A stretch of DNA of 64,000 nt from Pholiota molesta (taxonomy: Eukaryota; Basidiomycota; Agaricomycetes; Agaricales; Strophariaceae). Made by a program: the position numbers and the translations under genes. The notes below the pieces were generated by a model. That model saw only the letters and a list, made by a program, of their open reading frames with translations. It did no database searches and had not been told where the DNA came from. Location: contig JACGCK010000063.1 in NCBI GenBank assembly GCA_014925825.1, forward strand, positions 62,001-126,000, read 5' to 3'. Positions 908 to 53,707 of this stretch are shown piece after piece (positions within the stretch are counted from its first letter, which is position 1; each line of letters begins with the position of its first letter).

Positions 908-2834
908 CTAACGCACCCTCGCCCTCGCCACCGCCACCGCGAAATAACTAAGGCTCATCCACAGGCCGACCAACACCACCTTTTTGATATCTAGATCAGA
1001 AATCGTCGTCGGATTGGTGCCAGGGGTGGATTCCGACACCCGTCTCCTGACCAGGTGATTGACGCGGAAAGATACAGCACCATCCGCGACGGCTTTATTG
1101 CTATTCAACGGGCAAGCGCCATATATTAGGGATCGCAAGGCATACAGCGAACGAGCAAAATTCGTACAATTGAGCATCTGGACGACTTATGTCCAGTCCC
1201 GTCGGGGAGAACTGCTCCTTCATTCGCGAAAATAGCCACTCGCTGGCGCCAAAGCCTCCAACAAGAAATACAGACTAAACAATGATTTTATCAAAGGATG
1301 CACAGCAGTTCAATGATTCTACATACGGATATTTCATTTTTGGCCGCCTGCAGCTGCCCGTTGATTGAATCGATGATGCATTGGACAGAAGGCTCGAAGA
1401 ACGAGGCGACGTCAGCCCTAAAAATATGTCATAATCATCGGACCAAATCACCATGGATGAATGTAATTTCCCTGACTTACCCAGCGAGCGTGAGTTGTCC
1501 TGATCGAATGTTAAGTGAAGGCTCTTTATCTTTGTTTTTCAGCGTATCAAACTTGATGTATTGGTTTTCTTCAGCACTGCGGAATCTCAACTTGGTCGTC
1601 TTATCAAAGCAGCGGGTGATACGAGGTACGTCTGCCAGAAAACGGGAATTCTTCAAAGATTCTAAATAAGTGAATAAACAACATAAATCGTGACGGCGAG
1701 TCGAAGGTGAAATACCTTCTAAGAATCGTTTAGCATTGCTCGTGACGAAAATTGATCCCTTAAAATGGCCTTTTTCGATCGTTTAGAAAAAGAAAGGAAC
1801 GAAGAATTGATATAAAACGTACACTCTGGAGGAGCAACTTCTTCGAACGAATCACTGCTTGGCGATGCTTTCTTGTATGTACTAATATCAATAGTACCTC
1901 CACCAGCATCGACGATGATGATGCCTTTCCCCTTCTAAACAACCTTATTAGCTAGCAGATCTCACAAAATTAAATCGTCTTTATACCTTAATAGCCTCGT
2001 TAGCCAATCCGTTTGAAATGCAGAAGTGCAAACTGGCTTCGCCCTCAGTAACAAAAGTAAGTCGTAAATGACCATTCCGAGTATCAGGGATAAGCCCCGC
2101 CATAACAGCGGCCTCGCGCATCATACCCAGCTGCGCGCCTTCCCATCCATTCGGGTGGGTGAGGACGAACTCCGCGCGGGGCAAAAGGTTCTTCCACAGC
2201 TCGGCGCCATATAAGTGCATCTGCTCGATATATATCTTCGCGCACTTGAGGAGATACCTCAGGAAATCGGCGAAGACGTCGATCACCGTCTTGCCTTCCG
2301 GCAGCGCGGGTATATCGTGCGTGGCATGCGCCGCTGACTTGGTCTCAGGCCGCATGTGCAGCTTGAACCTATTCAGCGGTCAGTATGGGAAGGTCGTGCT
2401 GGAGCCATGAATCGTTGTAAATACCATTTGGCCTTGACCCAGCGTTCAGGATCCGCGTCATTGTTTTCGAAACGAGGATGCAGTGCCTCGGCTCCAGCAG
2501 CCTGGAACTGGCCCTGCTTGTCATAAATGACAATGGTCGGGATTTTCGAATCACTCCCGGCGTCATCTTGAGCTGGGAACCTAAACAAGAGATAGAATCA
2601 GGTTAAACATTCCGTTATGCCTGCCAAAAAGTCAAAACATACCTCATTACCCCGCGGATCCCGGGGACTGCGCCGGGATCAAGAATACTTTATGCGGAGA
2701 TGTTAGAATCTTTTGCAAAAGGGAATGCGTCGCGTTAGAACGAACCAGTACGAAATGCCACTGAACGTGGTGCCGACATCAAAAGCAAGCACTAATTTGC
2801 GGGTCAGGCCGCTGTAAGGTGGCGGGGAGGACAT
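908..2834 (-). CDS. HSPA12-like Hsp70 protein, copy A, C-terminally shortened
   Basis: A multi-exon gene for a divergent Hsp70-fold ATPase of the HSPA12 type. The start is ATG at 2834, because it is followed at once by the phosphate-1 motif LAFDVGTTFSG. Later exons give KIPTIVIYD, FVLTHPNGWEG (exon around 1981-2350), the phosphate-2 motif VDAGGGTIDIS (around 1880-1930), FDKTTKLRF (around 1620) and the adenosine-binding motif VFLVGGFGAS (around 1250). All nucleotide-contact motifs look intact. After KAVADGAVSF the family sequence stops near RRVS and an unrelated tail of about 40 residues runs to a stop at 908. Copies B and C continue for another 170 residues or so. I estimate about 450 residues against about 600 for B and C. 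Either the C-terminus has been lost or the last exons are decayed. Family assignment is firm; function is unknown. Confidence 0.75.
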
Positions 2835-3777
2835 TGTGCGGCGTATCAAAGGAAGCAACCGAAAATGAGGAGGCAAAGAATATGGCGGTTCAACCAGTTA
2901 TATGCATGCATAAAGCGATCGGCATGCGTCGTACACGTTGGCGAAGTTGAGGGTGCATGTGTGTGCTGGCTCGCAGCGCCAGGCAGGCCTAGCAGAATCC
3001 TGGTGCAGGTCTCGCTACGCGGCCCATCCTCACGTTGTCGTACAATAAATCATTTATGCCTGGAAGCCCTCCCTGTGTCGACGTCCTATGGCGGCTATGC
3101 TACTGCCAGCTCGCGCGCCTTTCAGGAGCTCACCAGCGAGATTAATAACCAAATGCGTGGCCTGGCCCGTCTAATCACAAATTAGAGCATGTTTAGGATG
3201 CTAAGGTGTAGATACGCACCTCCACCTCATGTATTCGCGACACCATAACCAGCGGCTTGGCTGCAGGATGCACAACATTGACCTCTCTAACGGTCATCGC
3301 CGAAACCCATTCGGTCGTTCAAGATGGTCAATAGGCCAATAATAGGCAGCTTGTTGCGACCTGGAGATATATAAGATATGAGCTGAATATATAACCTAAA
3401 CTTGGAGGGACGCGCCATCGGAGGCTGAGCCAAAACCAAGCCAAAACTCGCCCCAACGAGAAAGCTTCGATATTTCTTGATAACGCCTGACTATGGAAGG
3501 CAAATAAACGAGTAGCGACGTTGCCCTTGTACCCATCCTCGAAGAGCTGTAGTAGTTCGTTGGATTTGGGAACTTTCAAAGACGTGATATGGAGATGGAG
3601 GTCAGACACAAAACGCGCGTCGCGTACAGGTCGCGTATGATCGTGCACGCGCTGACTAAGCGGCTGGAAATGATAGGAGCGTGCAAGGCGCGTGAGCTGG
3701 CGGCGGAGGCGTGCGTCGCATCTTTTTTGCACACCCTTTGGCACGAATCGTCCTCATTCATATATTCATATTTGATC
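2835..3777. other. Upstream region of Hsp70 copy A, no supported gene
   Basis: This holds the promoter side of Hsp70 copy A. Open frames of about 100-140 codons exist on both strands (2865-3185 plus, 3328-3744 minus), but their composition is not protein-like and they match no family I know. Confidence 0.4.
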
Positions 3778-4192
3778 CTACCATAAATTACATCCAAATC
3801 GTAAATCATACATATAAAGCACCAATCCAGTGCTGTAGATATTTATTCTTCCGCATCTACATTCGTCTAAGTCTTTAGCGCTCTCGCACCGTAAATTCTC
3901 TGCATAGCATTCAGCTGAAAAATAATATGGAGTCAAGATGAAGGTTTATGTGAACAAGCGAATTAATCGGAAGCGTACCCGCAACCTTGCATGATAATTT
4001 GCAGTCGTAGTCTTGCTGTGCCTCTCGAGCAGCAGTCAGAATATCCTTGAGAGGGATCTCGTGTTTGGGTTTTGGTGACGGGGTCAGACTTAGACATGTA
4101 GATAAAGGTGGTTGAAGACATCTTTAATAGTACTAAATTATGAACATAGAATTTTAAAGCAGCACCAGAATATCTTACTTCCACGGCGGCAT
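3778..4192 (-). CDS. Possible small cysteine-rich protein, three exons
   Basis: A tentative gene built from splice signals. ATG at 4192 gives MPPWK, and a GTAAGA donor joins an AAAG acceptor near 4134. A second exon reads HEIPLKDILTAAREAQQDYD, and a GTACGC donor near 3978 joins a TTTCAG acceptor near 3914. A third exon contains AECYAENLRCESAKDLDECR and stops at 3778. The frame stays open across both junctions, which supports the model. The predicted product is about 95 residues with several cysteines (pattern C..C....C....C....C.C). I recognise no family. It could equally be a fragment of a larger decayed gene. Confidence 0.3.
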
Positions 4193-4590
4193 AAGTACAT
4201 TATTGATGCGCGTTTTGGCAGGACTCAGATTTCAGAGCGAAAAAAAAATTAAGTTCATTATCGATACAGTGGTTATTTCGAGTTTCTTCCCTCTCAAAGG
4301 GGGCGTAATAATAATAGTAATAATTTAGCGGGGTGTCATAACGGGGTCGTTGCGGTAGAAGTACAGTGCATGATACAAGTCCAAAGAGAACACGAAAGGA
4401 AGAAAGCGAATGTGTTGTGTTGAGCCAAATTTAATGACCGTGGTGTTTGTAGAGTCTGTCTGCAAATCGAAGGGGATGCAGATGCAAATCTCGTCGGGGA
4501 ATTTCGGATAGGGAATGAGAACGCAGGTGCGTGGTAGGTTGTTTTCAGGTTGTAGACGGTTCAAGGGCTGGCGTGGTTTATGGACCGCGT

Positions 4591-5212
4591 CTAATGTCTT
4601 AGGATGCCCCATGCAGTGAGTGCGCCCCCGACAGCCAGCAGCGTGAAGATGGCGAGCGCGCATACACATCGCCGCGCCCACTTGACCTCCACCTCGCGGA
4701 GCGTCGCGATGATCGCCTGGCGCTCCTCCTCGGTCTTCTCCGGCATCCACGCGGGCGCCGCAGCATCCGCCGCGGTAGGCGGCTCGCGCAGCGGCGAGAA
4801 CAGAATAAACGCGCCGAAGATCCAGAATGGGGGAAACACTGCAATGAAACGGGACGAGGTGAGTAACTGTGGTGTGAGCACGAGGGAATGGGGCAGACGC
4901 ACGGAAGCCGAATTTGAAGAGGTACATCGCGAGCGTGAGGGGCTCGGGTGCGTGGAGGGTGTACCCCGGGAGCGGGATCGCCGCCTCCTCGTCGTAGGGC
5001 GGGGGCACGTCCGCGGAGAGGCTCTGCCGGCGCGCGGCGTCGTGGCGCGACTCGTGGGTGCGCGAGCTCGAAAGTGTGTAGCCGAAGCTGGCGTCCATTG
5101 GGTCGACCATGTGCGTCTCGGGCGCAGACCAGGTCGTGTGTGTCAGGCTCTGGGGTGGAGCTTCGATGGATGCGGATGCGAAGGATGTGGAAGCTGATGA
5201 GGATGCAGACAT
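4591..5212 (-). CDS. Small two-helix membrane protein, unknown function
   Basis: Two exons, 5212-4903 and 4838-4591, with a 64-base GT-AG intron. The spliced length is 185 residues. The N-terminal 80 residues are Ser/Thr-rich and contain a PPPYDEEAAIPLPGY motif, a possible WW-domain or ubiquitin-ligase contact (PPxY). A hydrophobic stretch reads LYLFKFGFLFPPFWIFGAFI across the splice junction. A charged EKTEEERQAIIATLREVEVK segment follows, then a C-terminal helix ending ALTAWGILRH. The layout suggests a cytosolic tail and two membrane spans. Conserved fungal proteins of this shape are known to me only as hypothetical. A short upstream ORF lies just before the start. Confidence 0.75.
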
Positions 5213-5231
5213 TGTCGATGTAGTTTAGCTT

Positions 5232-5309
5232 TCAAGAATTTGGATGCAGGGGAGATGTAGATGTGAGCTCGAAGTCGGCGGGCGGTAATTGGGCGAATAG
5301 TGAAGCCAT
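5232..5309 (-). promoter_or_regulatory. Upstream ORF before the membrane protein gene
   Basis: ATG at 5309 opens a 25-codon frame (MASLFAQLPPADFELTS...) that stops at 5232, about 19 bases before the start codon at 5212. If the transcript begins further upstream, this uORF would be translated first and could lower expression of the main frame. Transcription start is not known. Confidence 0.35.
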
Positions 5310-6072
5310 AGCAGTTGTTATTGTGCGGTTATATAGGGGGGCATGATAGTTCTGGGAAAGAGCAATCCACCTCCAATCCAACCAATTCCCGTTGCCATGG
5401 CCCAATTTGGGGAAACGAAATGCCAAATAGATGCAAGCATCGCCCACAAGAATTTGTAGGCCATTCAAGAGTCTTTTACGAAGAAAAAATACCCAAAAGG
5501 TAGTAACGTTGTAGATTAGAGTGTAAGTTTAGTTTCTGGAGTTTTTATTTAGGGAGAAGTGGAGTTGTCTCGCTGGGTGACGATAAATCAAGCCACTCAC
5601 CGTATCCAGTAATCCATCAAACCTACTATACAAGGTAATTCAGGTAGCTATTTTAGTCTGCCGAGCAACAATCCTGACGCGCAGTTCCCATAAAAGGCAG
5701 AAATTCGGTTCACTGTCTAATCCATCCACGCCTATCAAACTTGCACTCCAATCAATCGTGCAACCCAATCCTGCGTCTGTCGTCATCTATAGAATGATTC
5801 CGGTGAATGGATTGGTTTTAACTTTCTAGGTATATATGCGTGCAATCACATTGTTGTCGATGTAAATATCGACTGTACTTCTAGTAAAGCAGTCCGCACC
5901 ATGATCCAGTGCCCTTCTCAGTCATGTATGTTACATTGCCTGTTTCTGCCCCCTCAATCTAGTAGCCTTGTGGAATGCCCAGTTTCAATCAGTATAGTAA
6001 GTTATTTGTAAATTATATACATCTGTCAACTACCTTCTGTACTCCGCATTCAAGAATCAAGCCCGCAGGGCA
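5310..6072. other. Intergenic, no supported gene
   Basis: AT-rich upstream region of the membrane protein gene. No coding or RNA feature recognised. Confidence 0.5.
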
Positions 6073-7221: not shown

Positions 7222-8638
7222 TCACAGAGGGCTCTCCGCGTCGCCGATAATGCTAGCAATACCAGAATACAGAACCACCTTCGGCTTCAACAACACCGAC
7301 TCCTTCCAATCGCCCCTCGCACTCGCAATCTTCTCCGCGCGAACAAGCCCGAGATCCGTTGTGCATAAAATCATCTCCTGCGCCGCCTCAGGGGACGACG
7401 ACGACGCGCCTATTGCATCGTCCATTGTCGCAGGGTTGAACTTGACATCAGGCGCGATGTAGAGCGCTTCCAGGTCGCACGACGTGATTCCTTCCCCGAT
7501 ATGCTTGTTCAGGTCCACAGCGAGCTTCATGACCACCGACACACGCCCCGCGAATCGGCCCACGATGCGCTCGTACAACATTTCTGGGCTGTCCTTGAGC
7601 CCTGCCGTTGTGAAGATGTTGGCGACCGCGCCGAGCATGTCGGAGGAGAGGTCTGGGTCGTGTGCGAGCATCCTCTGTAGGTGCTTTCGCGTCAATTGCC
7701 GCCACCTGCCCGACACGGCTTGTTCTTCTGATATAATGTGGTTAGTCAGAGATGTCTTTTGATTTTGAACTCTACTCACCTGTCTCTCGTACTCGCGCAT
7801 AGATCTCGCTCAGCATATGCTCGTCCTCCGGGGACTCGAACACCCACGACGAGATAATCCAATGTGTATACGCCGCCATACTCGCTTGCACCGCCAGCTG
7901 CACCAATATCGGATCTTCATGATGCTCCGAATTCTTCAACAGCTCCGCCATCCTCGGCCCCACCGTATCCTCCGCGCGCGCATATGCCTCCCTCGCCTCG
8001 TCCGACTCCTGCTCCTTCGCCTCTGCGTCGATCCGCTTCTCCTCAATCGTCAGCTCCTCCGTCATGCTCGCCGCAATCTGCATGATCTCCGAATTCAGAC
8101 TCTCCAGCAGCCCGACGACCTCGACGTTCGACAGCTGGTCCGCCTTGGTCAGGAACGCCTCCGCGCCGCGGAGCTCCGCCGTGCGCGTCTCGAGCAGCTG
8201 CGCGGTCTGCTGCTGCTCAGTCTTGGCGCGCTGGAGCTCGAGCGCGAGGTGCTTCTTCTGCGCCTCGAGGGACACGGTGCCAGTAGCCAGTGCACGGTGC
8301 GCGGTGCGGACGCTGTCCAGCTCCTCCTCGACGCGCCGCGCGTGCGTCAGCAGCCCCTCGATCTCTCGCTCCTGCGCCGCCGCCGCCGCCGCCTTCTCCT
8401 CCACCGCCGTCTGCGTCTCCTGGAGCGACCGGCTCAGGCGCTCGAGCGCCTCTTCGTGTTCTTTTGTCTGCGCGGCGGCGGCAGCGAGCGCGGCGGGGTC
8501 TGGTGCGGGCCGGGCGAGCCAGCCGTGCGGGACGGCGTGCTCCCAGAGTTGGCGTAGCTTGAACGCGCCGAAGAACGTCGCGACGGAGAGCCCGACGACG
8601 GCGAGCGAGGTGATGATAGGCGAGGGCGGCGACGTCAT
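7222..8638 (-). CDS. Coiled-coil paralogue 1, membrane-anchored
   Basis: Two exons, 8638-7780 and 7727-7222, joined by a 52-base GTGAGT...CAG intron; 454 residues. Residues 8-25 (ITSLAVVGLSVATFFGAF) form one hydrophobic helix, likely a membrane anchor. Residues 50-180 are an Ala/Glu/Gln-rich coiled coil. A helical domain follows (SLNSEIMQIAASMTEEL ... PILVQLAVQASMAAYTHWII) and ends with EIYARVRET at the splice. Exon 2 begins EEQAVSGRWRQLT and closes with LLKPKVVLYSGI. The last about 270 residues match coiled-coil paralogues 2 and 3, including the intron position. I recognise no named domain. Very GC-rich coding sequence produces long antisense open frames, which I ignore. Confidence 0.85.
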
Positions 8639-10722: not shown

Positions 10723-13145
10723 TCAGAAGAGTGCTCCATGCAAAACGACCTTTGGCTTGAGCAAACTCTGCTCGGCATCCCCGCCCTGCTTCGCGATCTG
10801 GAGTCCCAGGCCAACGGTGCATACGACCTGTTCATCCAGCGCCACATCGAGCTTCGCGCCTTGCATCCTGTCCCCTGGGTGGAAGTCGTCTTCATTCGCC
10901 ATTCGGTCGGAATCGAACGCGAGGCCCGGCTCGGCGATGGTGCACTCGAGCTCGCCGGCAACGCTTGAGGCGGTGTATTTATTCAGGCGGAGCGCGAGGG
11001 CTGCGACCTCCGCGAGCTTGGGTGCGAAGCGGGCGAGGATATCATTGGCGGAGGTAGTGGAAGTGGTGCCGCTTGATTGCTGCGACTCCCAGCCGCAGAG
11101 ATGCAGAATTTTGGTGATCTCGTCGGCGAATAGGGCGACTATTTTTTGAGTAAGGTTGGGCGACGGAACACAGCTTTTGAGAGCCGCCTTTCGCCATTGG
11201 AACGCTTTTTCTGGACCATCTAGAAGTGCGGTTTATCTGATAAACGAAGGGTTCGAAGAATAGAAGAACCAAGCTTACCTGCTCCTCGAATCCTCTCGTG
11301 CAACGCCACCAGAAATCTCCCGTACTCCCACTCAACTGGATACCAAGAAGTGATGATGCGCATGCAAGATGCGATCAGGCATCCTTGGAGCGCCGTCTGG
11401 AGTCGTATGAAGAACGTGTTGCTGTCGTCGTCCGTGGACTGGACCCCGCGCGCCAGGGACGTGACAAGCTCTGTTCCAAGCAGCGTCTTTAGATTGGAGG
11501 CGAGCGCACGGCGACGATGATGGCCGCCGGCATCCCCGGCGGTGGCGACGAACCTCATAGCCATGCCCTCCAGCTGATCCGTCATCGACGCCGCGGTCTG
11601 GTAAATTTCGTCGTTCAAGAGCTTGATCGCGCGCACGGCGCTGTCGATGCGCGTTATCGTTACGCTTCCGCCGGTGCCGGTGCCGCCGTACCCGCGAGCG
11701 ACGCTGGGCGGTCGGTTGAGGCCCCTGCCTGCCTGGTCCTCGCTCGCCTGCTGTCGGAGCTGATCAACGAGCATACGGTTCTCTCGTTCCGTTGCGTTGA
11801 GGTTGTTTTGCAGGTTGATAAGCTGCGTGGCCATGTACTCGTTCCCGCTTTCCAGCCTTGCGATGTGTCCGTCTTTCTCCTCGACCTGCGCTGCGGATTC
11901 TCCGATGACGTCGTCGTGCCGCGAGAGCTGCTGCTCGAGATCGCGGTTGCGTGCGTCGGCCTCGCGCGCCTGTTCTTGCGCCTCGTTCATCTTGCGCTCC
12001 AGGCGCCGGATGCGGTCGTCTTGCGCATTGAGCTTGGTGGTTAGCTGGCGAACCTGCTCCTGGAGCTCGACGGTTTTCTCGGCCTGCTCCTTGAGCTCGG
12101 CGGTTCTTTCGACCTGCTCCTGCAGCTCGACGGTTTTCTCGTCGTGCTCCGTGCGCTCGAGCGCGAGGATGTCCTGTAGGCGGCGGGCCTCGTTGGCGCC
12201 TGCAGCCTCCGAGTGTGCGAGAGCTTCGCGAAGGTCGTCGTTTTCCATCTTGAGTTTATTGATCTGGGACTCCGCTGCTTTGGCGTTGGCCGTGAGGGTG
12301 TTGAGCGCCTGTGATTTAAGTTTGATCTCTGCCTGAGAGTTGTTTAGAGCTGCCTCCAGTTCCTGTGCGTGTATCTGCGCTCGGTCTTGCTCTGCTTTCG
12401 CTTCGCGCGCATACATCTGTGCCCGGTCTCGTTCCTCTTCCAGGTCCTGTGAGCGTTTATGCGCCCTGTCCCTTTCATCCTCCGCTTCCTGTGCGCGGAG
12501 CTGGGCTCTGTCCAGCTCGTCGTCCAGTTCCTGCGCATGCATCTGCACTCGGTCTCGTTCCTCTTCTACCTCTCGCGTGCGCGTCTGCGCCCTGTCTCGA
12601 TCGTCCCACAGCTGCTCCAGCTCTTCCTTCTGCTTCTGGATCGTCTCTTCGAGCGCCTTTGTTGCCGCATCTGTTTCAACGGCCAAAATCTCTGTTTGTT
12701 TATCCTTCGGAAGATCGCCGGAGTGTTCGAGCTGCGTCCATTCGTCGGACGGTTTTGGCTCTGGAGGGGATACTACGGTATAGCCAGACTCCTCCGCATG
12801 GTCGTCTTTGCCGTCGCCGGCACTCCTTTCGGGTTTCGAAGGGAGGTTGGGATGGAGGTTCTCGGCGAGGGGGGTGCGGTAGTACGAGGATGCAGATTCG
12901 GTATCAGAGGATATTTCGACTATGGAATCTGCTCTGGGCTCTGCGGTCTTTGGGGTGGATGATGGGGATGGGGATGAGGATGGGGATTGTGGATTGATCG
13001 CAACGACGTTGGAGAGCTTGGAGGATGGGTTCTTGGGGACGTCTTTCTCTCCGGGAAGTGAAACAAGGCTCCCGGTGGATCCGAGACGCTTGCTGCGACT
13101 GCGGCCTTTGCCTAGAAATTTGGATACGGAGAACAGTGTTGACAT
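10723..13145 (-). CDS. Coiled-coil paralogue 2, long coil
   Basis: Two exons, 13145-11279 and 11219-10723, with a 59-base GTAAGC...CTAG intron; 787 residues. The N-terminal 150 residues are Ser/Pro-rich and basic at the start (MSTLFSVSKFLGKGRSRSKR). Residues 160-470 form a long coiled coil with imperfect short repeats of the type AQELDDELDRAQLRAQEAED. The conserved tail starts near LLNDEIYQTAASMTDQLEGM and ends HERIRGAD at the splice. Exon 2 closes with SLLKPKVVLHGALF. The tail, intron position and terminal KPKVVL motif match paralogues 1 and 3. There is no membrane helix, so this copy is probably soluble. It shares an upstream block with the divergent Hsp70 pair B/C. Function unknown. Confidence 0.85.
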
Positions 13146-13303
13146 CAGGAGGGATGAGATATCTGCGACGGGTGAATCGATGCTTGAGGTGGCTGGGGAA
13201 GGAGGGCGAGTAGAAAAGTATTATGTGGCTGCAGGAGAACCTAGCGGTGTTTGACGAACGAGCTAAATGAGCGAGCCTCCACCAGGGTGCTTGTCATGCA
13301 GAC

Positions 13304-13411
13304 AAAGGCCTGTTCTTTACATGTTTGGGCCCAACGTGGTTGGGCATGAGGTTAGTGGATGGGTGATGCAGCACGCCGGATGATGTCTGCACAGGTTGCA
13401 TGCAAGGTGAC
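13304..13411. promoter_or_regulatory. Upstream block shared with Hsp70 B/C promoter
   Basis: About 160-270 bases upstream of coiled-coil gene 2. It carries the same ordered words as 17876-17961: a CTGTTCTT word, then GTTTGGGC, AACGTGGT, a GGATG word and GCTGCATGC or TTGCATGC. The match is interrupted but runs about 90 bases. It may be a shared control region or simply duplicated DNA. Confidence 0.45.
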
Positions 13412-13858: not shown

Positions 13859-13970
13859 AACATCGAAAAAAGGCAAGCATTAACTTCGTCGTCCGAGACG
13901 TGGTATCATCGTTCTAACTCTCGATTTTAGGAGTGAGGCGAAGATCATTTACGACCCAGAGGCCCAATAA
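13859..13970 (+). pseudogene. Relic of the last two Hsp70-like exons
   Basis: The sequence reads NIEKR, a short intron, then SEAKIIYDPEAQ and a TAA at 13968. This corresponds to the last two exons of Hsp70 copy C (NVEKR, SEAKLVYDPDTTNDR, ending at 20699). The intron would need a GC donor in place of GT. No preceding Hsp70 exons are attached, so this is a stranded 3' end. Confidence 0.6.
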
Positions 13971-14009
13971 GGCAGGTATTGTACTTAGAAAATTTTGGTT
14001 GTACCAGCT

Positions 14010-14320
14010 CCTAAACTCTTTCATTTCGTTGATCTGAGTATTCTATAAACCGATATCCTATAAGCTTTCCCTTGGTAATGCGAAAGAGGTTGTGAGATAC
14101 AGTACTTTATGTAGGAAGAATGACATCGAATGCTCCTGGGATACGCTTTGTGGCCGAACTTGAGATGTAGGAGGTCGAGCTACGTTCGCAGTGATCCGCC
14201 CTTTTAGGATCGTGGATAATGTCATAAGTCGTTCCATATGTAACCTTCGAGATTCTGCTTCGCATGAAGTTGTCTGACTAGATAGAAAGAGCCGTACGGA
14301 ACCATTGGATACCGCACTAT
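14010..14320 (-). pseudogene. Relic of an internal Hsp70-like exon
   Basis: About 310 bases align along their length with 15481-15770 of Hsp70 copy B. That region encodes the exon from NGSVSFYLDRFVRSRIAKIT to FDVILPKV and the start of the next exon. This copy carries stops and indels. It lies beside the plus-strand relic and in the opposite orientation, so the fragments have been rearranged. Confidence 0.65.
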
Positions 14321-14663
14321 CTGCTGAATTCAGTTAGAGTCTCTGATCTCCGTTAAACCTTGTTTTATAGCTTCTACCAAATAATAAAAGGTATGTGATT
14401 ATTTATGCACGCTCGATATCGCGAATCACTTCTCCATCTGAATAGTCGTCGGTCTTGTAAGTATACCTATAGGCTATAATATGGACTCCGCTGAGGATGG
14501 GTGTAACAGACGCATTATGGACTACTTAACCCAACACAAAAATCAACAAAAGGTTGTCCCAAGTCGCTGTCATTGTCGTCCCAATCGATTTAGCACAGAA
14601 CAAATAAATTCAAGATGGCCGCTTTCGTCGCCTTGCACTTATGCTCACCTATACATTCACACT

Positions 14664-14755
14664 ATGACATCCCGCGATCTGCGTACAAGGTTCAGAGTCC
14701 TCGGCGAAAGCTCGTCTTTCCCTTCAATGTATTAACGTAGGGTATTGTAAACGAG
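14664..14755 (+). pseudogene. Relic of an Hsp70-like first exon
   Basis: The stretch from ATG at 14664 through CGAAAGCTCGTCTTTCCCTT matches the first exon of Hsp70 copy C (18071-18162), which encodes RKLVLALDVG. A small deletion and a stop (SMY then TAA) interrupt the phosphate-1 loop, so it cannot be functional. Confidence 0.6.
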
Positions 14756-14922: not shown

Positions 14923-17518
14923 TCATAAAGCATAATCAGCTGGATGAGGGTCGTAAATAATCTTCGCTGGACTCCTAAAAGAATGAAATAAGGAACCAGT
15001 CATCTCAATCTAGGAACATGCGAAAAAGACATCCAATGCCCACGGATAATGCGTACCTTTTTTCGATACCCTGTATAACGAAAGACAAGTCGCGAATTTG
15101 ATCAGGAATTTGTTATTTTCAAGCATGTGCATAGAAAGACTACGCACCCCTTCCTTCCAAGCCACTTGTGCCTTCAACTCTGTTAGCCCAAACAGTAGCA
15201 CGATATCAAAATTTGCCTGATAGTAGAATCCGCCTTCCTGGGCTCCGTACTTCGGAAGCCTTACCCTCGGCAGAACCGAGACGTTGACGTCAATAGAGCA
15301 CAATGTGGTGTAATTATCTGGAATATTGATCGTATTGCAGCTATAGCATATATAAGGATGGAGGCTTACTTTTATCTACGTCCTTCCATTTCGGCTGAGC
15401 AACGGATCCCCGATAGCACGAGATTACCATTGTAATGTTCATCAAGTCGTCCACCGAATCCGCTTCATTGACGTATGGTCTCCTAAACTCTTTGGTCTCT
15501 TGGACCTGCGTATTCTATAAACGAATATCCTATAAACATAATTGCGGAAGAACTTGTGAGGTACAGCACCTTAGGAAGGATGACGTCAAACGCATCCCTG
15601 ATACGTACATGGCCCGACGTCGCGAAGTAGGATGTCGCTAAACGTTGGCGGTGATCTGCTTTGCTGGGGTCATAGCCGATGTCGCACGTCACCCCGTATG
15701 TAATTTTTGCAATTCTGCTTCGCACAAAGCGGTCTAGATAGAAAGAGACGGAACCATTGGATACCGCCTTATTTCTATCATAAAGACATTAACAGTGGAG
15801 TTTAGAAGAGGTGTTGAAAGTGACACGAACACATGATTTTCAGGACGCAGCACTTTCAAGCCGGCAGAACTGAGCGCAGCATGTACCGTATTGAACATGT
15901 AATTGCTGGCGGCAAAGCCTCCTACAAGGACAACGTGCTATAGATGAGAAACTTTGAGAAATAGCCCAGAGGATATGCGAACATACAGGCAGAACTCACG
16001 GAAATAGGTTTAAGTGCGGTATTCTTTTGATCTATCGCAGTCTTGATGATGCAATCGATTGAAGGCTTGAAAAAAGACGCGATATCCGGCCTGAGAATCA
16101 TTGATGGTGTTTAAAGGGGATTCGTTGAAGGTTAGTCAACAGCGCAAGGAGGTACGCACCCCAGCAATTTAAGTTGGCCAAAACGAATGTTGTGGCCAGC
16201 ATCGTTGTCTCTAGTAGAACCAAACTTGATGTATTGAGCGTCTTCTGCGTTTTTGAACCACATTTTCGTAGTCTTGTCAAAGCAACGAACGATATGATCG
16301 ACATCGTCAGCAAAAGGAGAATCAGCGAGATATTCTAAGTGTTTGCGAGAGGGATGAGAGAAACAAATATGGATGTTACAGGGAAATTACGAACTCTCAA
16401 GGAACTTCTGAGCATACAGGTTGACGAAGACAGAGCCGTGAAAGTGACCTAAACCATGATCAGACATTAAATTATAGAGAAGTTCTGGGAAGACAAATGA
16501 CTGACATTGGGGAGGCGCCACTTCTTCAAACGTCTCCTTTGATGCGGATATATTCCTGCTGTACGAACTGATATCAATAGTGCCACCTCCCGCATCAACG
16601 ATCACTACTCCGTCACCATTCTGTAGAACTTTCCAGTAAGCCTCGCTGGCAAAGAATTAGCACGCTAGAGAACACACCTTCATTGCGCCATCCGGAAGCC
16701 CGTTCTGGATGGCAAAGTGGAGACTGGCCTCTCCCTCAGTGACGAATGAGAGCCGCGCATGCCCGGCGGGGGTGTCTGGAATCAGTTTCGCAAGAACAGC
16801 AGCTTTGCGCATCTCAGACTGTTGCGCGCCTTCCCAGCCATTGGGATGGGACAGCACAAAGTCGATCTGTCCCTTCAGAGATGCCCATAGATCGACACCA
16901 TTCGCATGCGCTTCCTGAATGTAGCTGGATGCGCATTCGAAGAGGTAGGCCAGGAAGTCGGCGAAGACCTCGACAACCGTTTTGTTGAGCGGCAGCGGCG
17001 GGATGCCATCACCCACCTCTCTTCCAGCTCCGGGGATAACTGTTGATCGTAGGTGAAGTTTGAACCTGTAGACATGTTGCGCACACCGTCAGTATTTCGT
17101 CTTTCATGACGACGTTCTACGCACCACTCAGCCTTGACCCACTGCTCCTCCTCTGCTTGCGCATAGATTACTTCACTCGCTGCTTCAGCGCCGACAGCGC
17201 GTACCTTCCCACTTCGATCATAGTAGACGATAGTTGGAATCTTCGATGCACCATTGACATGCTCGTGGGCAGGGAACCTAACTGCCCGTTAACACGGACA
17301 CGTCAAACAGATGCTCTTCGCGCGTCAACTGCTGACCTCGTTACACCCTTGATTTCTGGTACGCGTCCTGGGTCAAGCACGCTATCACAGGCTCTGTTCA
17401 GCGCCCATCGCAGTCAGCGAGCAACGTACCTGTATGATATACCACTGTACGTGGTTCCAACATCAAAGGCAAGGACGAGCTTTCGGCGCGGACCCTTATA
17501 CGCAGACCTGGATGCCAT
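14923..17518 (-). CDS. HSPA12-like Hsp70 protein, copy B, full length
   Basis: About 13 exons; roughly 600 residues, near the size of animal HSPA12 proteins. ATG at 17518 gives RKLVLAFDVGTTYSGISY with an intact phosphate-1 loop. Further exons give KIPTIVYYDRSGKV, FVLSHPNGWEGAQ, VDAGGGTIDISSY (phosphate 2, near 16600), HFHGSVFVNLYAQ, FDKTTKMWF, HVVLVGGFAASNYMF (adenosine motif, near 15915), VSFYLDRFVRSRIAKITYGV, CYRGSVAQPKWKDV and a last exon SPAKIIYDPHPADYAL with its stop at 14923. All expected blocks are present and in frame across short introns. It is divergent with copy C over a 550-base shared upstream region. The likely role is an ATP-dependent chaperone or a chaperone-like sensor; the substrate is unknown. 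Confidence 0.8.
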
Positions 17519-18070
17519 AGTGTAAGTAACTGTCAGAAATTAGAACAACGCCAACCACAATAATAAATGAATTCTATTAGCGCGCGCGTCATGTGATTAA
17601 TAATTAAACGAAAACGCAAATCACTCATTGTCAACTTGAACTTGCCACTCTTCGTCAATGCCCTTGCAACTTTGTCCTAACAAATCTAGTCAATGTTGAA
17701 CCAAACTAAAGGGCGGAACCCACTTCTATATGTCTGAAGCAATCGACAGTCGTCTGCGATGACGCCACTGAAATCACGACATTAACAACAGCCGCAGCAA
17801 TGGACGACAAGCGCGAATACACCAAACCACACCGTCAGTGAACGACAGAACCGCAGCGAAGTTTTCACGCAGAAGAAGGGCTGTTCTTGACGGGTTTGGG
17901 CTGAACGTGGTGTGCCATAATACTGGATGTTGGTCTGCAGAGGCTGCATGCGAGCCTTCAGCTTGAGGTGAAGGCGTGCAAGATCTATTTCGAGCATGGC
18001 TGATATAGAGAATTTTCTTATCAGTCTATAAGATGACCATGCTCGCTGCCTCCCTTTCCCAGGATTTTCT
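17519..18070. promoter_or_regulatory. Divergent promoter of Hsp70 copies B and C
   Basis: The 552 bases separate two start codons pointing away from each other. The part at 17876-17961 resembles 13304-13411 upstream of coiled-coil gene 2, which suggests common control or duplication. No heat-shock element array (repeated nGAAn) was obvious by eye. Confidence 0.5.
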
Positions 18071-20699
18071 ATGATGGTCTCTCAGTCTGCGTATATTGGT
18101 CCTCACCGAAAGCTCGTTCTTGCCCTTGATGTTGGAATTACGTATAGTGGAATATCGTACAGGTGCGCAGTTGGCTAATAGCGCTGTATGCAGCGCCAGC
18201 ATGCTGATGAGGACCCGACTGCAGCGTCCTCGATCCTACGCAGGTGCCGGAAATTAAAGGCGTAACAAGGTCAGTAAATGGTGCTCAAAAAACGTATATT
18301 TGAGGAGGCATGCTAACGAGGAGAGCTGCTAGATTCCCTGGCCATGAACACATCAGTGATGCATCGAAGATCCCCACTATCATCTACTACGATCGCAATG
18401 GGAAGGTACAAGCAGCGGGCGCTGAAGCCATGAGAGAGGGCATCTATGAGCAAGCAGAGGACGAGCAATGGGTCAAGGCCGAGTTGTGCGTGAAGTAGTT
18501 ATATCACTATCAAGGACGAACGTTAATGGTGCATATTTTCGTGTTTGCAGGTTCAAACTTCACCTCCGATCGCGAGTGGGCCCCGGCGCAGGAAGAGAAG
18601 TCAGCAACGATATCCCACCTTTGCCTCCCAACAAGACTGTCGTCGAAGTCTTCGCCGACTTCCTAGCGTACCTCCTCGAATGCGCGTCGAGCTTTATCAA
18701 GGACACATATGCGAACGGCGTCGACCTTTGGTCCTCTGTGAAGGATCAAACCGATTTTGTGCTATCCCACCCTAACGGCTGGGAAGGTACACCACAATCT
18801 GAGATGCGTAGGGCTGCAGTCCTCGCGGGCCTCATTCCAGATACCACCGCCGGACACGCGCGCCTGTCGTTTATCACAGAAGGAGAGGCCATTCTACACT
18901 TTGCTATTCAGAATGGGCTCCCGGCAGAAGCGATGAAGGTACGTCTCCAAGTTTAGATCTACCATTCACTGGACTTCGGAGTTGATGTGATCTTTACAGA
19001 CAGGTGACGGCGTCGTGATCGTCGATGCGGGAGAAAATACTATTGACGTCAGTTCATATGGCAAGAACACGTTAGCATACAAGGAAACATTTGAAGAGGT
19101 TGCTGCTCCCCAATGTAAGGTGGCTACTTTTTGTAATCTCTATGAATGCAAATCTGATCGCACTTCAGGTCATCTCCATGGTTCTGTCTTTGTTAGCATC
19201 CACGCCCGCCTATTCCTTGGAAGTTCGTCATTTCTTTGAAACATCTGCTCGCATTTTCTCATCCTGATCTCTGCTCAGACTACCTGGCTGGATCTCCCTT
19301 TGCTGACGATATCGAACATATCGTGCGCTGCTTCGATAAGACCACGAAACTACGATTCAGAAACGAAGAAGAAACGCAATACGTCAAGTTCGGTAAGACC
19401 AGAGACAATGACCCCAGCTACAGCATCCGCTTCGGACAGCTCAAACTCCTAGGGTCCGTTCCCTCTAATCTTTCGCTGTCAACTGTTCTCATCTAATTAT
19501 TCTGTATGATCTCTAGGACAGATGTCGCATTGTTCTTCCAGCCTTCCATCGACTGTATCGTCAAGGCCGTGCTCGATCATAAACGGACTGCACGCAACCC
19601 TATTACCGTCAGTGTGTCTCTCATATCTTCGCACATTCCACAGCTTGTCTGACTGAGCCATGTGATATAGCACGTCGTTCTTGTAGGAGGCTTTGGCGCG
19701 AGCGATTATATGTTCAACAAAGTACACGCTGCGCTGGCGCCTGCCGGTCTGAACATCCTCCGCCCGGAAAGTCATGTGTCAGTTGTTTCCTCCATTATCC
19801 TCGTGCTGCTTGTTTTGACCTTGCTTTTCCAACAGAAACAAAGCGGTATCAGATGGTGCTATCTCCTTCTACCTTGCCCACTATGTGCGAACCAGAGTGG
19901 CCAAGATCACGTACGGGAACTTCTATAATATCCAGTACAACCCCGACGCGCCAGACCACCGCGAACGGTCCTCAAAGGTCTACATCTCGGCAAATGGCCT
20001 CAAGTATCTTCCTGATAAGTTCGACCTGATTCTGCCAAAGGTCTGCATCCCACCGAATTTTCTGTGTTTAACAGGAATAGCGTTCATGAGGTGAGGGTTT
20101 CCAGAATACCCAGATCTCGGAGACGATCGAATGTAGGCGCTCTTGTCACTGGAACAAAAATTCAATAAGCGAATTCAAGACAATGTCGCTTCCTCTTTGG
20201 TGCTATCGTGGGCCCTTGGCTGTGCCGCAATGGAAGGACGAGGATCCGCGTAAGGCTAACTATCACTCTCAACTGACCTTTCACTTTGATGAAAAATATT
20301 CACCGACGGATTGACTGATTTCTTTGCACATAGAGAACTTCACCAAACTGTGCTCGATTGTTGCTGATCTCTCGCATCTGCCACTGAAGTCGAAGAAGAA
20401 AATAGCGGGCTCGGGCATGTTTTATAGGATGGATTTTGACATCGTGCTGTTGTTTGGGTTGGCGGAGCCGAAGGCGCAGATTGCATGGAAGGAAGGGGTG
20501 AGTGGTGTTTTCTGTATTCCGGGAAGACACTGGGAGGTGCTGATCGAATCTCAAATCTGCTTTCATCTTTCATTTCATATAGAACGTTGAGAAAAGGTAT
20601 GTGAATTGGGTTTTATTGTGATGTTTATGTGTTCTCATTGTTCGTTCTAGGAGTGAGGCTAAGCTCGTGTACGATCCCGATACCACTAATGATCGATGA
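18071..20699 (+). CDS. HSPA12-like Hsp70 protein, copy C, altered ATP motif
   Basis: About 14 exons, with exon 1 at 18071-18162 and exon 2 at 18225-18269; roughly 600 residues. Blocks follow copy B: RKLVLALDVGITYSGISY, KIPTIIYYDRNGKVQAAG, FVLSHPNGWEGTPQ, HLHGSVFVSIHARLF, FDKTTKLRF, HVVLVGGFGASDYMF, SFYLAHYVRTRVAKITYGN, and SEAKLVYDPDTTNDR with the stop at 20697-20699. The phosphate-2 loop reads DAGENTIDVSSY (19021-19060) where copies A, B and D have DAGGGTID. The two central glycines are replaced by Glu-Asn. Phosphate 1 has DVGITYSG in place of DVGTTYSG. Reading frames are otherwise open, so the gene may encode an ATP-hydrolysis-impaired or non-hydrolysing paralogue. Confidence 0.8.
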
Positions 20700-20944: not shown

Positions 20945-23819
20945 TTACGATGTTCGGTACGCCTGGAGCTCCTTGCCCCGGATCTCCGACAGGTTTCGGT
21001 AGTCCTCGAGCTCGCGCTGCACGTTCAGGAGCTCGTTCTGCAGTGTCGTCGCGTTCTCGCGGTGCCGGAGGCGGTCCTGGTCGATCTCGCGGTTCGCGTG
21101 TTTCAGATGGAGGTTGTCGCTCTCGGCGCGCTTTAGATCGCTCTGTAGGCGCTGGTTGTCAGCGAGGAACACCTGCGCGCCCGTGAGCTCCTTGCCCCGG
21201 ATCTCCGACAGGTTGCGGTAGTCCTCGAGCTCGCGCTGCACGTTCCGGAGCTCGTTCTGCAGCGTCGCCGCGTTCTCGCGGTGCCGGAGGCGCTCCAGGT
21301 CGTCCTCGCGGATCGCGTGTTTCAGGTGGAGGTTGTCGCTCTCGGCGCGCTTTAGATCGCTCTGTAGGCGCTGGTTGTCAGCGAGGAACACCTGCGCGCC
21401 CATGAGCTCCTTGCCCCGGATCTCCGACAGGTTGCGGTAGTCCTCGAGCTCGCGCTGCACGTTCCGGAGCTCGTTCTGCAGCGTCGCCGCGTTCTCGCGG
21501 TGCCGGAGGCGCTCCAGGTCGTCCTCGCGGATCGCGTGTTTCAGGTGGAGGTTGTCGCTCTCGGCGCGCTTTAGATCGCTCTGTAGGCGCTGGTTGTCAG
21601 CGAGGAACACCTGCGCGCCCATGAGCTCCTTGCCCCGGATCTCCGACAGGTTGCGGTAGTCCTCGAGCTCGCGCTGCACGTTCAGGAGCTCGTTCTGCAG
21701 CGTCGCCGCATTCTCGCGGTACCGGAGGCGCTCCTGGTCGATCTCGCGGTTCGCGTGCTTCAGGTGGCGGTTGTCGCTCTCGGCGCGCTTCAGGTCACTC
21801 TGCAGGCGCTGGTGGTCAGCAAGGAGCCGGTGGTACTTTTCCTCGCGGGCTGGATCGGAGGACGAGGTAGATGAAGGCAGAAATTTTCCTAGGTATCTAG
21901 CTCGACTAGAATCAGGTCCGGAGAGGCTACTATGAGGAGGAACGGGAGGAGGTTCTTTAGCATTGGAAGCCGGGCGCGGCTCGCGAGGGTGGCCGTCTTG
22001 TCTACCTGCACTACCCCCAGCTGCAGCTGATAATGTAGGCTTCGAAACTCTGCTTTGCACAAAGTGGTCCAGATAGAAGGAGACGGCACCGTCCGATACT
22101 GCTTTACTTCTGTTCAAGGGAAAATGTGAGTAATGTCAAGAAGAGACGCTGTAGTAACGGCACAAACACATGGCTGTCAGGCCGGAGGACGTTGAAGCCG
22201 GCGGGCTCGAGCGCAGCGTGGACCAGATTGAACATGTAATTGTTGGCGGCAAAGCCTCCTACAAGAACAACATGCTAAAGAGGACACAGTATGATACATC
22301 TGTGAAATATGAAAATATACAGGGCAGCCACTAACAGAGATTGGTTTGGCCGAGGTCGTTTTTTGATCCATCACGGCGTTGATAATACAGTCAATAGAAG
22401 GCTTGAAAAACGATGCCACATCCATCCTGGGCATTGTTTAGGCGGTAATCATTGAAAAGGCGAAAAGAAACGTACCCCAGCAGCTTAAGCTGTCCGAAAC
22501 GAATGTTATAGGCAGCATCATTGTCTCTGGTAGAACCAAACTTGATGTATTGATCATCTTCCGCAATTATGAACCGCTGTTTCGTAGTCTTATCAAAGCA
22601 GTGAACGATGTGGTCGATATCGTCAACAAAGGGGGATTCAGCCAGATAGTCTACGTGGTCACGACCATGATTAATGAAGCAACTGCGAAACGTATGAGGA
22701 AGTTACGAACTCTGAAGGAACTGACGAGCGTGGATGGTGACGAATACAGACCCATAAAAATGAGCTAGATCAGGATTAGATTTAAATTTTTAGATAAGTA
22801 GTAGGAAAGACAACTGACATCGGGGAGGTGCCATTTCTTCAAACACGGCCTTTGATGCTGATACATTCCTGCTATACGAACCGACATCAATAGTACCTCC
22901 TCCTGCATCGACAATTATCACACCGTCACCGTTCTGTGCAACATCCTAGTAAGCTTCGCGGCAACGCAGAGCGTGTTTGAAGGCGTACCTTCATCGCGCC
23001 CTCTGGGAGCCCATTCTGGATAGCAAAGTGCAGACTGGCCTCTCCCTCGGTGACGAACGAGAGCCGCGCATGTCCGACGGACGTATCTGGGATGAGTCCC
23101 CCACGAACAGCAGCTTTGCGCATCTCTGACTGCTCTGTGCCCTCCCAGCCGTTGGGGTGCGACAGCACGAAGTCGATCTCGTCCTTCACGGATGCCCAGA
23201 GGACAGCGCCGTTCGCATGCGTCTCCTGAATGTAGCTTGACGCACATTTGAAGAGGTAGGCCAGGAAGTCGGCGAAGACCTCGACGACTGTCTTGTTGAG
23301 TGGCAGGGGCTGGACCTCTGATAGTAGGTGGAGTTTGAACCTGTTGCCATGTCGCGTACACCGTCAGCATGTCGTCTTTGATCAAGTTGAAGACGTTCTA
23401 CGCACCACTCGACCTTGACCCATTTCTCCTCCTCTGCCTGCACATAGATGACTTCGCTCGCGGCTTCGGCACCGACAGCTCGTATCTTCCCACTTTGATC
23501 ATAGTAGACGATAGTCGGGATCTTCGATGCGCCATTGACTTGCTCTTGCGCAGGGAATCTAAACGTTCCACGTCAACACGACCGCATCGACTAGCCAACC
23601 TCAGAGCGCCACTAGAGCCACTTAACTTACCTAGTTACACCCTTGATTTCCGGTACTTCCCCTGGATCAAGCACGCTACAAGAGGATGCTAATCAGTTTA
23701 GCGCCCATCGTCGCAATGAATAATGCCTACCTGTACGATATACCACTGTATGAAGTTCCAATATCAAAGGCGAGGACGAGCTTTTGGCGACGACCCTTAT
23801 ACGCAGACCGGGATGGCAT
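20945..23819 (-). CDS. Hsp70-like ATPase domain fused to repeated coiled coil (copy D)
   Basis: About 10 exons, roughly 770 residues. ATG at 23819 gives RQKLVLAFDIGTSYSGISY, then KIPTIVYYDQSGKIRAVG, FVLSHPNGWEGTEQ, VDAGGGTIDVGSY and HVVLVGGFAANNYMF, so the ATPase core looks intact. Exon 4 lacks about 12 residues (IPGAGREV...) seen in copy B. The last exon (about 22113-20945) starts SKAVSDGAVSFYLDHFVQSR. It changes near 22033 from Hsp70 sequence to AAGGSAGRQDGHPREPRPAS, which matches the proline-rich linker of coiled-coil gene 3. Four 73-residue coiled-coil repeats follow, then LQAYRTS and a stop at 20945. The Hsp70 C-terminus and the conserved tail of the coiled-coil family are both absent. 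The fusion lies within one open exon, so it is genomic and not a gene-model artefact. Assembly error is the main alternative. Confidence 0.8.
20967..21842 (-). repeat. Four tandem 219-bp coding repeats
   Basis: The word AGCTCCTTGCCCCGGATCTC recurs at 20967, 21186, 21405 and 21624, exactly 219 bases apart. Each unit encodes 73 residues including QRLQSDLKRAESDN and LEDYRNLSEIRGKEL. The two middle units appear identical by eye; the outer units differ at a few positions. Because 219 is a multiple of three, unit number can change without a frameshift. The donor-like gene at 24195-26170 has a single copy (around 25190-25390). Confidence 0.95.
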
Positions 23820-24194
23820 AGTGCAGATGTATGGGAAAGCCAGGGGGTGAAGGCGGCCATCCTATTTTTGTTCGCACCGTGCTATGTAGTAAGATCATTG
23901 TGGGCGACTTACATATGTTAGGTGATCAGAACGGCCTTTTTATTAGGATGATCGCAAGATGATCGCCTCATATTATTGTCCACCCCTTTTCTATTCACAA
24001 TCATCCTCAGCAGTCGCTCAGCCGAGTCTAAGTATACGCGATGGTAGACTTACCAGGTGCAAACATAGTGATTCGCGCTATCGATGAGACAATATGAAGA
24101 AATCCGAATACAAGCCAATCAGACCAATGTCCATGGCGTTCCCAAACCAGTGCAAAATATTCTACAATCATGACCCAGTCCTTTGCCTTGTGCA
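23820..24194. other. Upstream region of Hsp70 copy D
   Basis: No gene. A stretch near 23925-23955 (GAACGGCCTTT then a TATTAGGATG word) resembles 20880-20915 between the 3' ends of copies C and D (GAACGGCCTTT then TATTGGGATG). This suggests local duplication around this Hsp70 gene. Confidence 0.4.
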
Positions 24195-26170
24195 TCACTC
24201 GGCATGGGGAGTGCTTTTGCTCTTTTTCGGTCTACTAGGCGCGCTGGCCGGCTGCAGCAGCTCCTGCAGAGTGGACTGCAGGATGACCTTGGGCAATAGG
24301 ACGATGCGGGCCGCACCGCTGCGTGCCCCGCGCGACGACACATCGCACAGCCCAATGCCTGCAGTGCCGAGAATAGCCCCACCACCACCGCCGCCGCCGC
24401 CCCCACCGCCATCCTTCTTCCGCCGCCCGTCGTCCAGCGCATCCTCCATGCACTGCGGGTCGAATGGCGCCCCAGGGGCAGGGCAGTACACCTCGATGTC
24501 GGCCGATGTGAAGTGCTCACCGAGCGCGATGCGGATATCGAGGATCGCCTTGAAGATGGGCTTGAGCTGCTGCTCGAATGTGCTGGCCTTGTCCGGGCTG
24601 GAGAGCCCCCAGCCGGCGATGCCCATGATGTGTTGCAGGTTGTTGGTAAAGTCCCGCGTCCAGTTGTCCGATGAGGGGCGCGTGAGCGCATGCGTTATCG
24701 CCCGCCAGCGGCCTGATACAGCTTGTTCTTCTGTATGACGTTAAATTAGAAGGAGTTGTGCTCGTTAGCGGTGGTCTTGGAGGAGCAAAATGAAAATTTA
24801 CTACCTTTGCGTCTGATCTCTCCATAAGTGTTGCTCAAAAAATTGTTTATCTCTTCCGAGCCCTCATGCCAGCGCTCGATTTTTGCGCTGCAGAATTTCG
24901 CAAAATACATCTGCATGACGAGTTGCACGAGGATGGGATTAGGCTCTGGCTCGCTCGCAGTACTGACAAGTACCCTGGCAGCAGGCTCGCCGATCAGCGT
25001 ACACGTTGCATGGTACACGCTCTGCATTTCCGCTTCCGACTTCCACTGGGGCTGCATATGCATCAGCGAATCGGCGAACCACGCCGCCGCTTGGAAGGCC
25101 TCCTCATTGAGATCGCCGACCTTCTGGCTGAGCTCCGACGCCGAGAGCAGGTCCGCCTTGGTCAGGAACACCTGCGCGCCCATGAGCTCCTTGCCCCGGA
25201 TCTCCGACAGGTTGCGGTAGTCCTCGAGCTCGCGCTGCACGTTGCGGAGCTCGTTCTGCAGCGTCGCCGCGTTCTCGCGGTACCGGAGGCGCTCCTGGTC
25301 GATCTCGCGGTTCGCGTGCTTCAGGTGGCGGTTGTCGCTCTCGGCGCGCTTCAGGTCGCTCTGCAGGCGCTGGTTGTCAGCAAAGAGCCGGTGATATTCT
25401 TCTGTCGCTTTATCGCGGGCTGGATCAGGGGTCGAGGTAGATAAAGACATGAATTTTCCTAGGTATCTAGTACTGAGGCTTGGCATTCGACTGGAATCAG
25501 GTCCGGGGCGGCTACTATGAAGAGGAACTGCTTGAGCATTGGAAGCCGAGCGCGGCTCGCGAGGGAGGCCGGCTTGTCTGCCTGCACTACCCCCGGTTGC
25601 AGCTGCATGGTCAGCCTGCGATGCTTGGGATCTCGAAGTTGTATTGGATTGCTGTTTCTGTTCGGGCACTGGCGAATCTAGCTCAAAGAAATCTTCCTCC
25701 TCTGATGAATTCGACATTTGCGGGGGCAACGTCGACGGAGTCTGGGCGCTTGCCCTCGCAGAACTTGAACGGGCATCGTCTGTGGGTCTGTGGGTCTGTC
25801 GCGGGGGTAGAACATCGACAGAGGAATGCATGCGCGCCGAATCCCCCTGATCTCTGTGACGCGGGTTATCCTCCGTGTCGCGCCTGTACGTCGAGGACCT
25901 GTTTGGATCCCGCTCTTTCGTAGTTGTAGAGGAGCCTCCATGTCGATCACCACGCTCATGGTGCCCTGTACCTTGAGGTGTCAAAGGTCGGGGTTCGTTA
26001 AGGTTTCCACCATCGTTCAGAGTCGGTTTAGGTGGCTTTGGAGGTGGCCGATTATCAATAGAGTGAGAATGGGCATGCGACGAAGCATAGTTCGCGGGCT
26101 CAGCCTCATGTAACCTGGACGCCATGGTTCTACTGGAATCAATGTCCGGCGCGGCGTTGGAAGCAGGCAT
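24195..26170 (-). CDS. Coiled-coil paralogue 3, proline-rich N-terminus
   Basis: Two exons, 26170-24805 and 24730-24195, with a 74-base GTAGTA...CAG intron; 633 residues. Residues 1-240 are disordered, rich in Pro, Ser and His (PPPKPPKP). A short coiled coil follows (QRLQSDLKRAESDN ... LEDYRNLSEIRGKEL) and is nearly identical to the repeats in Hsp70 copy D. The conserved family tail comes next: EEAFQAAAWFADSL, PILVQLVMQMYFAKF, GEIRRK at the splice, EEQAVSGRWRAIT, then LLPKVILQSTLQELL. A run of about 12 glycines interrupts the tail near 24370-24410, encoded by a simple GC-rich triplet repeat. The EEQAVSGRWR motif at the exon 2 start is shared exactly with paralogue 1. Function unknown. Confidence 0.85.
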
Positions 26171-53586: not shown

Positions 53587-53707
53587 GGTGAGGTTGTGGT
53601 AAGAAGAATGCGGGTGGTTGGAAGGACTAGTAACGCAGCGCAGCTGGTACTTGGTATAGATGCGTTTGGGTGGTGGGATTGATGAGGAGATAGGGCAGGC
53701 GGTGGGG

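Follow-up and report, generated by a model that had tools for sequence, protein, structure and literature searches.

This study examined a cluster of Hsp70 and coiled-coil genes in the fungus Pholiota molesta, within a stretch of 64,000 nucleotides that corresponds to C586:62001-126000 of the 65.6-Mb assembly (the window, to which coordinates refer unless a contig is named). Four of its genes encode Hsp70s that are termed HSPA12-like here, a label that rests on the public names of several relatives and on a weak likeness to DnaK. Three others encode coiled-coil proteins with a common C-terminal tail, referred to as the coil-tail family. The original prediction had placed four such Hsp70 genes and three coiled-coil genes within about 25 kb, and all of them were recovered as clean splice models; as a whole, the observation proved correct in almost every detail.

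Gene content and extent of the locus

Seven genes were modelled by hand from the sequence, and every model has GT-AG introns of 48-85 nt and zero internal stops. On the minus strand lie hspA (908-2834; 10 exons, 469 amino acids), coil1 (7222-8638; an N-terminal membrane segment, a long coil and the conserved tail, 454 amino acids), coil2 (10723-13145; a long soluble coil and the tail, 787 amino acids) and hspB (14923-17518; a complete Hsp70 of 14 exons and 597 amino acids). They are followed by hspC on the plus strand (18071-20699; likewise complete, 14 exons, 595 amino acids) and, again on the minus strand, by hspD (20945-23819; an Hsp70 nucleotide-binding part and a coil derived from coil3, 781 amino acids, without the tail) and coil3 (24195-26170; a soluble coil and the tail, 633 amino acids). 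A further three HSPA12-like genes and one tail gene lie outside the window, at C586:36.5-58.5 kb, and bring the cluster to a total of about 52 kb.

The broken copies that had been predicted between the genes are present as pieces of an Hsp70 at about 13925-14730, in which 14008-14315 resembles hspB (15480-15767), 14648-14730 resembles the first exons of hspB and hspD, and 13925-13957 resembles 14948-14980. A simple pseudogene cluster was rejected, as frames and splice sites are intact on both haplotypes except in coil2 on C110, the contig of the second haplotype.

An upstream block common to a coil gene and to hspB and hspC had also been claimed, and it proved real but small. A 50-bp block upstream of coil2 (13291-13340) matches a partner block between the divergent hspB and hspC, in their promoter region (17862-17911), at 80% identity (E 2e-7 to 1e-6), and the pair is kept on both haplotypes. 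No further copy was found at E<=0.01 within the stretches searched. A broader upstream module was rejected because the likeness spans 50 bp only; the block is a possible regulatory element common to coil2 and hspB/hspC.

Hsp70 proteins and their ATP motifs

One Hsp70 query matched 1,422 proteins, and the species-named ones among the 120 listed come from mushroom-forming fungi. Several relatives carry the name 'Heat shock 70 kDa protein 12A/B' in public records, and hspB matches BJ912DRAFT_1145353 at 99%. A profile of 30 relatives, searched against the PDB, matched DnaK (E 2.1e-6) over profile positions 227-405; single proteins had no Pfam match at cut-off, and the NCBIfam model HscA matched P0116 weakly (E 7e-5), far below its own cut-off. 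While hspB and hspC are full-length members of the family, hspA and hspD are without the C-terminal part; the hspA C-terminus consists of unrelated residues, and its C110 allele is intact with an identical end.

The split between intact and altered ATP motifs was confirmed. The phosphate-loop motifs are intact in hspA and hspB (DVGTT, DAGGGT, GGF), and the first phosphate loop of hspD carries GTS. Both phosphate loops of hspC are altered, to DVGIT and DAGENT in the window and, differently, to DVGTK and DAGEHT in the C110 allele. The motif D[AC]GGGT is retained in 109 of the 120 listed relatives. Besides hspC, the Hsp70 part of P0239, a joined protein of Leucoagaricus described below, has a changed phosphate loop (NVGEGT); therefore, ATP-motif loss may have occurred more than once. 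We also noted that P0137 (Pisolithus) and P0157 (Imleria), both models of about 1,000 amino acids, each look like two HSPA12-like Hsp70s arranged head to tail; they are either merged neighbours or true double Hsp70s.

Coiled-coil proteins and their conserved tail

The three coiled-coil proteins have in common a C-terminal tail of about 260 residues, which is the conserved part of the family (BLASTP E 2e-31 for coil1 and coil3; E 1e-13 for coil1 and coil2). At 100% identity coil1 matches BJ912DRAFT_906612 of Pholiota molesta, and close relatives of it were found in many mushroom species. The expected division into membrane-anchored and soluble coils agrees with hydropathy, by which a putative anchor occurs in coil1 only (best 19-residue N-terminal value 2.06, compared with -0.21 in coil2 and -0.48 in coil3).

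The tail belongs to no Pfam family, and the Pfam, NCBIfam and PADLOC searches with the tail and the Hsp70s yielded nothing above the cut-offs, only weak matches to coils or Hsp70-like models; the PADLOC defence library, which is without cut-offs, gave weak coil matches for coil1 (E 3e-4 to 4e-3). In the predicted coil1 model (predicted local distance difference test, pLDDT, 85.6), the tail is confidently predicted to be globular, and the predicted fold runs from a long helix through a helical bundle, of eight helices in the tail, to a terminal beta domain. Foldseek comparison of the tail and coil1 models with the PDB and with viral models gave no informative relation. In a second look with VIA-align, the top rows were 1dkg_A and 9a81_A, whereas long-helix and bestrophin rows led for the full coil1 model. 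A profile of the tail alignment yielded coil matches only among the best 60 of 222 in the PDB, and hhalign of the tail with GrpE gave a probability of 0.1% (27 of 80 sequences used, Neff 1.3). Likewise, GrpE (PF01025) did not appear at E<=1 among the Pfam matches of five coil open reading frames (ORFs), coil2, P0001, P0031 (tail) and P0239.

Proteins that join Hsp70 to the coil-tail family

The original prediction also stated that one gene joins the two families, and hspD is that gene. In the window it encodes Hsp70 residues 1-420 followed by sequence derived from coil3, its nearest relative and neighbour, in the form of four near-identical tandem coil units of 73 residues (219 nt; 20966-21825, minus strand; 76-91% identity to coil3) and then a stop. 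The C110 allele reads as a single intact protein of 822 amino acids, in which the frame continues through two further introns from the Hsp70 into one coil and the complete tail; this is the large difference between the haplotypes. A 244-residue protein from another source (P0240, on a 2,576-base contig) is 95% identical and of the window type with two units, against four in the window; the locus thus seems to be naturally variable.

When the joined C110 protein was used to lead a profile search, seven proteins were retrieved, among them P0240 and P0201, a public shorter model of the C110 allele itself. The remaining five (P0236, P0237, P0238, P0239 and P0241) join Hsp70 to the coil-tail family in three other genera, Candolleomyces, Coprinellus and Leucoagaricus; P0241 has the reverse order and part of the tail only. 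By reading of its sequence, the coil also precedes the Hsp70 in the Laccaria relative P0226. Of the 595 positions of the Hsp70 profile, the match to the Hsp70 part reaches 429 in P0239, 430 in the window hspD, 521 in P0236 and 578 in P0238; in the C110 allele it reaches about 510 and overlaps the coil.

The joined state requires four gains or losses on the Hsp70 tree, at least three of them forced by well-supported branches (12 of 500 shuffles were as low), and four on the tail tree, two of them forced (140 of 500), with P0237 left out of the former, P0241 out of the latter, and a very long P0239 branch in both.

Constraint between the two haplotypes

Over the stretch of C110 compared, from 7.5 kb left of the window to 32.6 kb, this second haplotype runs colinear with the window, in blocks that are 92-97% identical (83% in one 315-bp block). 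Frames are kept on C110 in the four Hsp70 genes (in hspD up to its coil), coil1 and coil3. Between these two haplotypes of one genome, the allelic dN/dS (ratio of nonsynonymous to synonymous substitution) was 0.13 for hspA, 0.24 for hspB, 0.45 for hspC, 0.15 for the Hsp70 part of hspD, 0.12 for coil1 and 0.32 for coil3; coil2 was left out, its C110 copy being out of frame by a one-base length difference. At the protein level the six allele pairs share 93-99% identity, and they are under purifying selection. The description of the cluster as fast-evolving is therefore not upheld for the six scored genes (dN/dS 0.12-0.45).

Variation at the locus is seen where hspD ends and, beyond the window, in the left flank. 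In this flank, C586:37.2-41.1 kb has no match in the assembly above 87% over 556 bp, and the adjoining tail gene is 98% identical to C434; the stretch C586:37200-41100 is either haplotype-specific or an assembly gap.

Co-occurrence in other genomes

A lack of co-occurrence of the two families in other genomes had been named beforehand as a refuting result, and co-occurrence is present. A tail gene and an Hsp70 lie on one contig in 17 of the 20 species in which both families were listed, where 1.3 would be expected, with shared contigs inferred from equal sizes of contig records within a species and expected counts assuming a 40-Mb genome. For tail contigs under 0.7 Mb, linkage was found in 10 of 12 species (0.3 expected). 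To count among the 20, a species needed a tail match and one or more of the 120 listed Hsp70s, and Pholiota molesta itself was excluded; 16 species with a tail match but no Hsp70 among the 120 were left out, as were the tail rows P0099 (which shares a contig with a listed Hsp70), P0113 and P0115, and P0171 and P0193, from other assemblies of a species, were not paired. The two genes can be close: their locus tags are at most 10 numbers apart in Panaeolus, Hypsizygus and Candolleomyces, one 4,494-bp contig of Crucibulum carries an Hsp70 together with a tail paralogue, and CC1G_06037 (tail) and CC1G_14089 (Hsp70) lie on one 3.6-Mb contig in the laboratory mushroom Coprinopsis cinerea.

Within the Pholiota molesta genome, tail sequences were found in the cluster (C586/C110/C434), at C589/C228, in a remnant at C1/C34 and, weakly, at C171/C623. 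C589 is a second, separate locus with other branches of both families, in which an Hsp70 lies about 7 kb from the tail gene, and the C1/C34 remnant has Hsp70 pieces within 1 kb of the tail sequence. No Hsp70 was found within the 10 kb examined around the weak C171/C623 sequences, and no tail gene within the 10 kb examined around an Hsp70 at C179.

Neighbouring features

In the extended cluster, a palindromic element of about 2.5 kb (C586:48537-51012, about 11-13.5 kb left of the window) matches itself on both strands at 98% and has copies at 97-99% on C133, C35, C61 and C101; it is probably a young mobile element. Next to coil3, the minus strand of the window at 27616-33405 encodes a PH domain in one ORF (27616-28467) and a RasGEF domain in another (30634-33405); these are ordinary signalling genes. 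Further along, at 53194-54911 (minus strand), a DUF2855 ORF (54033-54911, E 2e-61) adjoins a ZIP-transporter match below its cut-off.

Interpretation

We favour, with about even confidence, the reading that HSPA12-type Hsp70s and the coil-tail family form a dedicated chaperone-partner pair of mushroom-forming fungi. The linkage in other species, the C589 locus and the joined chains together make a chaperone switch with coiled-coil partners, as originally proposed, the best reading. In such a pair, the coil-tail protein would oligomerise through its coil and bind the Hsp70 by docking its tail on the nucleotide-binding domain; coil1 would be tethered to and act at the membrane, coil2 and coil3 in solution, and the C110 allele of hspD as a single chain, while hspC, with its altered ATP loops, might be a slow or non-hydrolysing regulatory copy. 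As the most specific mechanism that we propose, the tail might also do what GrpE does and open up the nucleotide-binding domain so that ADP is released faster. That it works in this GrpE-like manner is a tentative idea that we rate as unlikely, and the same low grade applies to the wider view of the coil-tail family as a GrpE-like exchange factor of the eukaryotic cytosol and membranes, evolved as private to HSPA12-type Hsp70s in mushroom-forming fungi and with natural single-chain exchanger-Hsp70 fusions.

Several points weigh against a dedicated pair. The join points vary between profile positions 429 and 578, and P0237, P0238 and P0241 could be merged gene models, although the genes would still be neighbours in that case. 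The trees show gains or losses of the joined state, not origins. Moreover, 14 species with a listed Hsp70 had no tail match and were left out of the 20; the tail search detects proteins only within a set length range and with exact shared words, and three of these species gave joined chains in the profile search. Finally, the sample is biased towards relatives of this cluster, as the listed Hsp70s were ranked by their similarity to hspB.

The linkage could also be inherited synteny in a duplication-prone cluster, in which old neighbours undergo tandem copying and unequal exchange makes chimeras like hspD without any joint function. The hspD coil is closest to the adjacent coil3, relics and repeats are plentiful at the locus, and joined chains elsewhere may arise where both families already adjoin. 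We consider this explanation doubtful, since the separate C589 locus, with other branches of both families, is likewise linked, the joined C110 allele is intact with a constrained Hsp70 part, and joined proteins are dispersed across the Hsp70 tree, with at least three forced gains or losses. A different possibility is that the coil-tail proteins are clients or cargo, that is, a coil scaffold that assembles by itself and that its own Hsp70 keeps soluble or remodels, and the long coils, the soluble paralogues, and a linkage and fusion that suit a private client as well as a co-chaperone are compatible with it. This appears improbable, as the C-terminal part of the Hsp70, the expected holder of a client, is wholly gone in the window hspD and P0239 and partly gone in the C110 allele and P0236; a coil or coil-tail takes its place, which in the window hspD and P0239 argues for a working arm rather than a client, although P0238 keeps nearly all of the C-terminal part. 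The conservation of the tail also speaks against a client.

The original prediction further suggested a recognition or conflict locus, with a chaperone switch and coiled-coil sensors in allorecognition or defence. We keep this explanation on account of the structural haplotype differences, namely the absence or presence of the tail in hspD, whose coil repeats also number four against two in P0240, and the unmatched left flank; tandem copies and relics would fit it as well. It is nonetheless very improbable in our view, given the purifying selection on six closely similar allele pairs, the occurrence of coil1 relatives in many species, the possible assembly gap in the left flank, and the fact that none of the scanned proteins matched a toxin, NLR, HET or pore family at cut-off.

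An Hsp70 with a co-chaperone is a known kind of system, whereas this partner family, its linkage and its fusions are new as far as we found: no description was met in the PMC literature, outside which most subscription papers and bioRxiv lie. Searches of the same literature found no paper on HSPA12 in Agaricomycetes, Basidiomycota or Coprinopsis, and none for the locus tags of five relatives. HSPA12-like Hsp70s are numerous in mushroom-forming fungi and without a described partner there in the literature searched; a linked and sometimes fused partner recasts the question of their function as one of two proteins and one assay. If the tail were an exchange factor, it would represent a new route to Hsp70 control and might hint at partners still missing for animal HSPA12A/B.

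Relation to known chaperone and recognition systems

Fungal allorecognition loci (HET/NLR and others) have tandem copies, relics and haplotype differences, as does this cluster. Unlike them, the cluster shows purifying selection between alleles and no HET or NLR domain in the scanned proteins; the Pfam, NCBIfam and PADLOC scans, which covered part of the cluster genes and which divergent domains could escape, gave no effector, NLR, HET or toxin family at cut-off.

BAG, HspBP1/Fes1 and Hsp110 are exchange factors of cytosolic eukaryotic Hsp70s and would be functional analogues of the coil-tail proteins. BAG and HSP110 are named in PMC13149161. In contrast to these factors, the coil ORFs, coil2, P0001 and the tail P0031 have no such Pfam match at E<=1.

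GrpE/Mge1 resembles the coil-tail family in its genetic association with an Hsp70 and in the 1dkg_A and 9a81_A rows that lead the second VIA-align look. The outline of GrpE, a long helix, a helical bundle and a terminal beta domain, may have the same order as the predicted coil-tail model. The two differ in that no sequence relation to the tail was found, Foldseek sees none, and the tail bundle is larger, with its eight helices. In addition, the coil-tail genes are fungal and nuclear, and they exist alongside the GrpE-family gene that the genome already has at C444/C327, the only places found in a PF01025 search of the genome.

The cluster Hsp70s are like HSPA12 (Hsp70-12) in having a divergent nucleotide-binding domain with DxGTT and GGGT loops and a weak likeness to DnaK. 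The metazoan HSPA12 branch is described as the least conserved in PMC12692333, and no coil-tail partner is mentioned in the accessible parts of PMC13149161 and PMC12692333. Unlike HSPA12, the Hsp70s of this cluster are multi-copy and tandem, and they are linked, and sometimes fused, to the coil-tail family.

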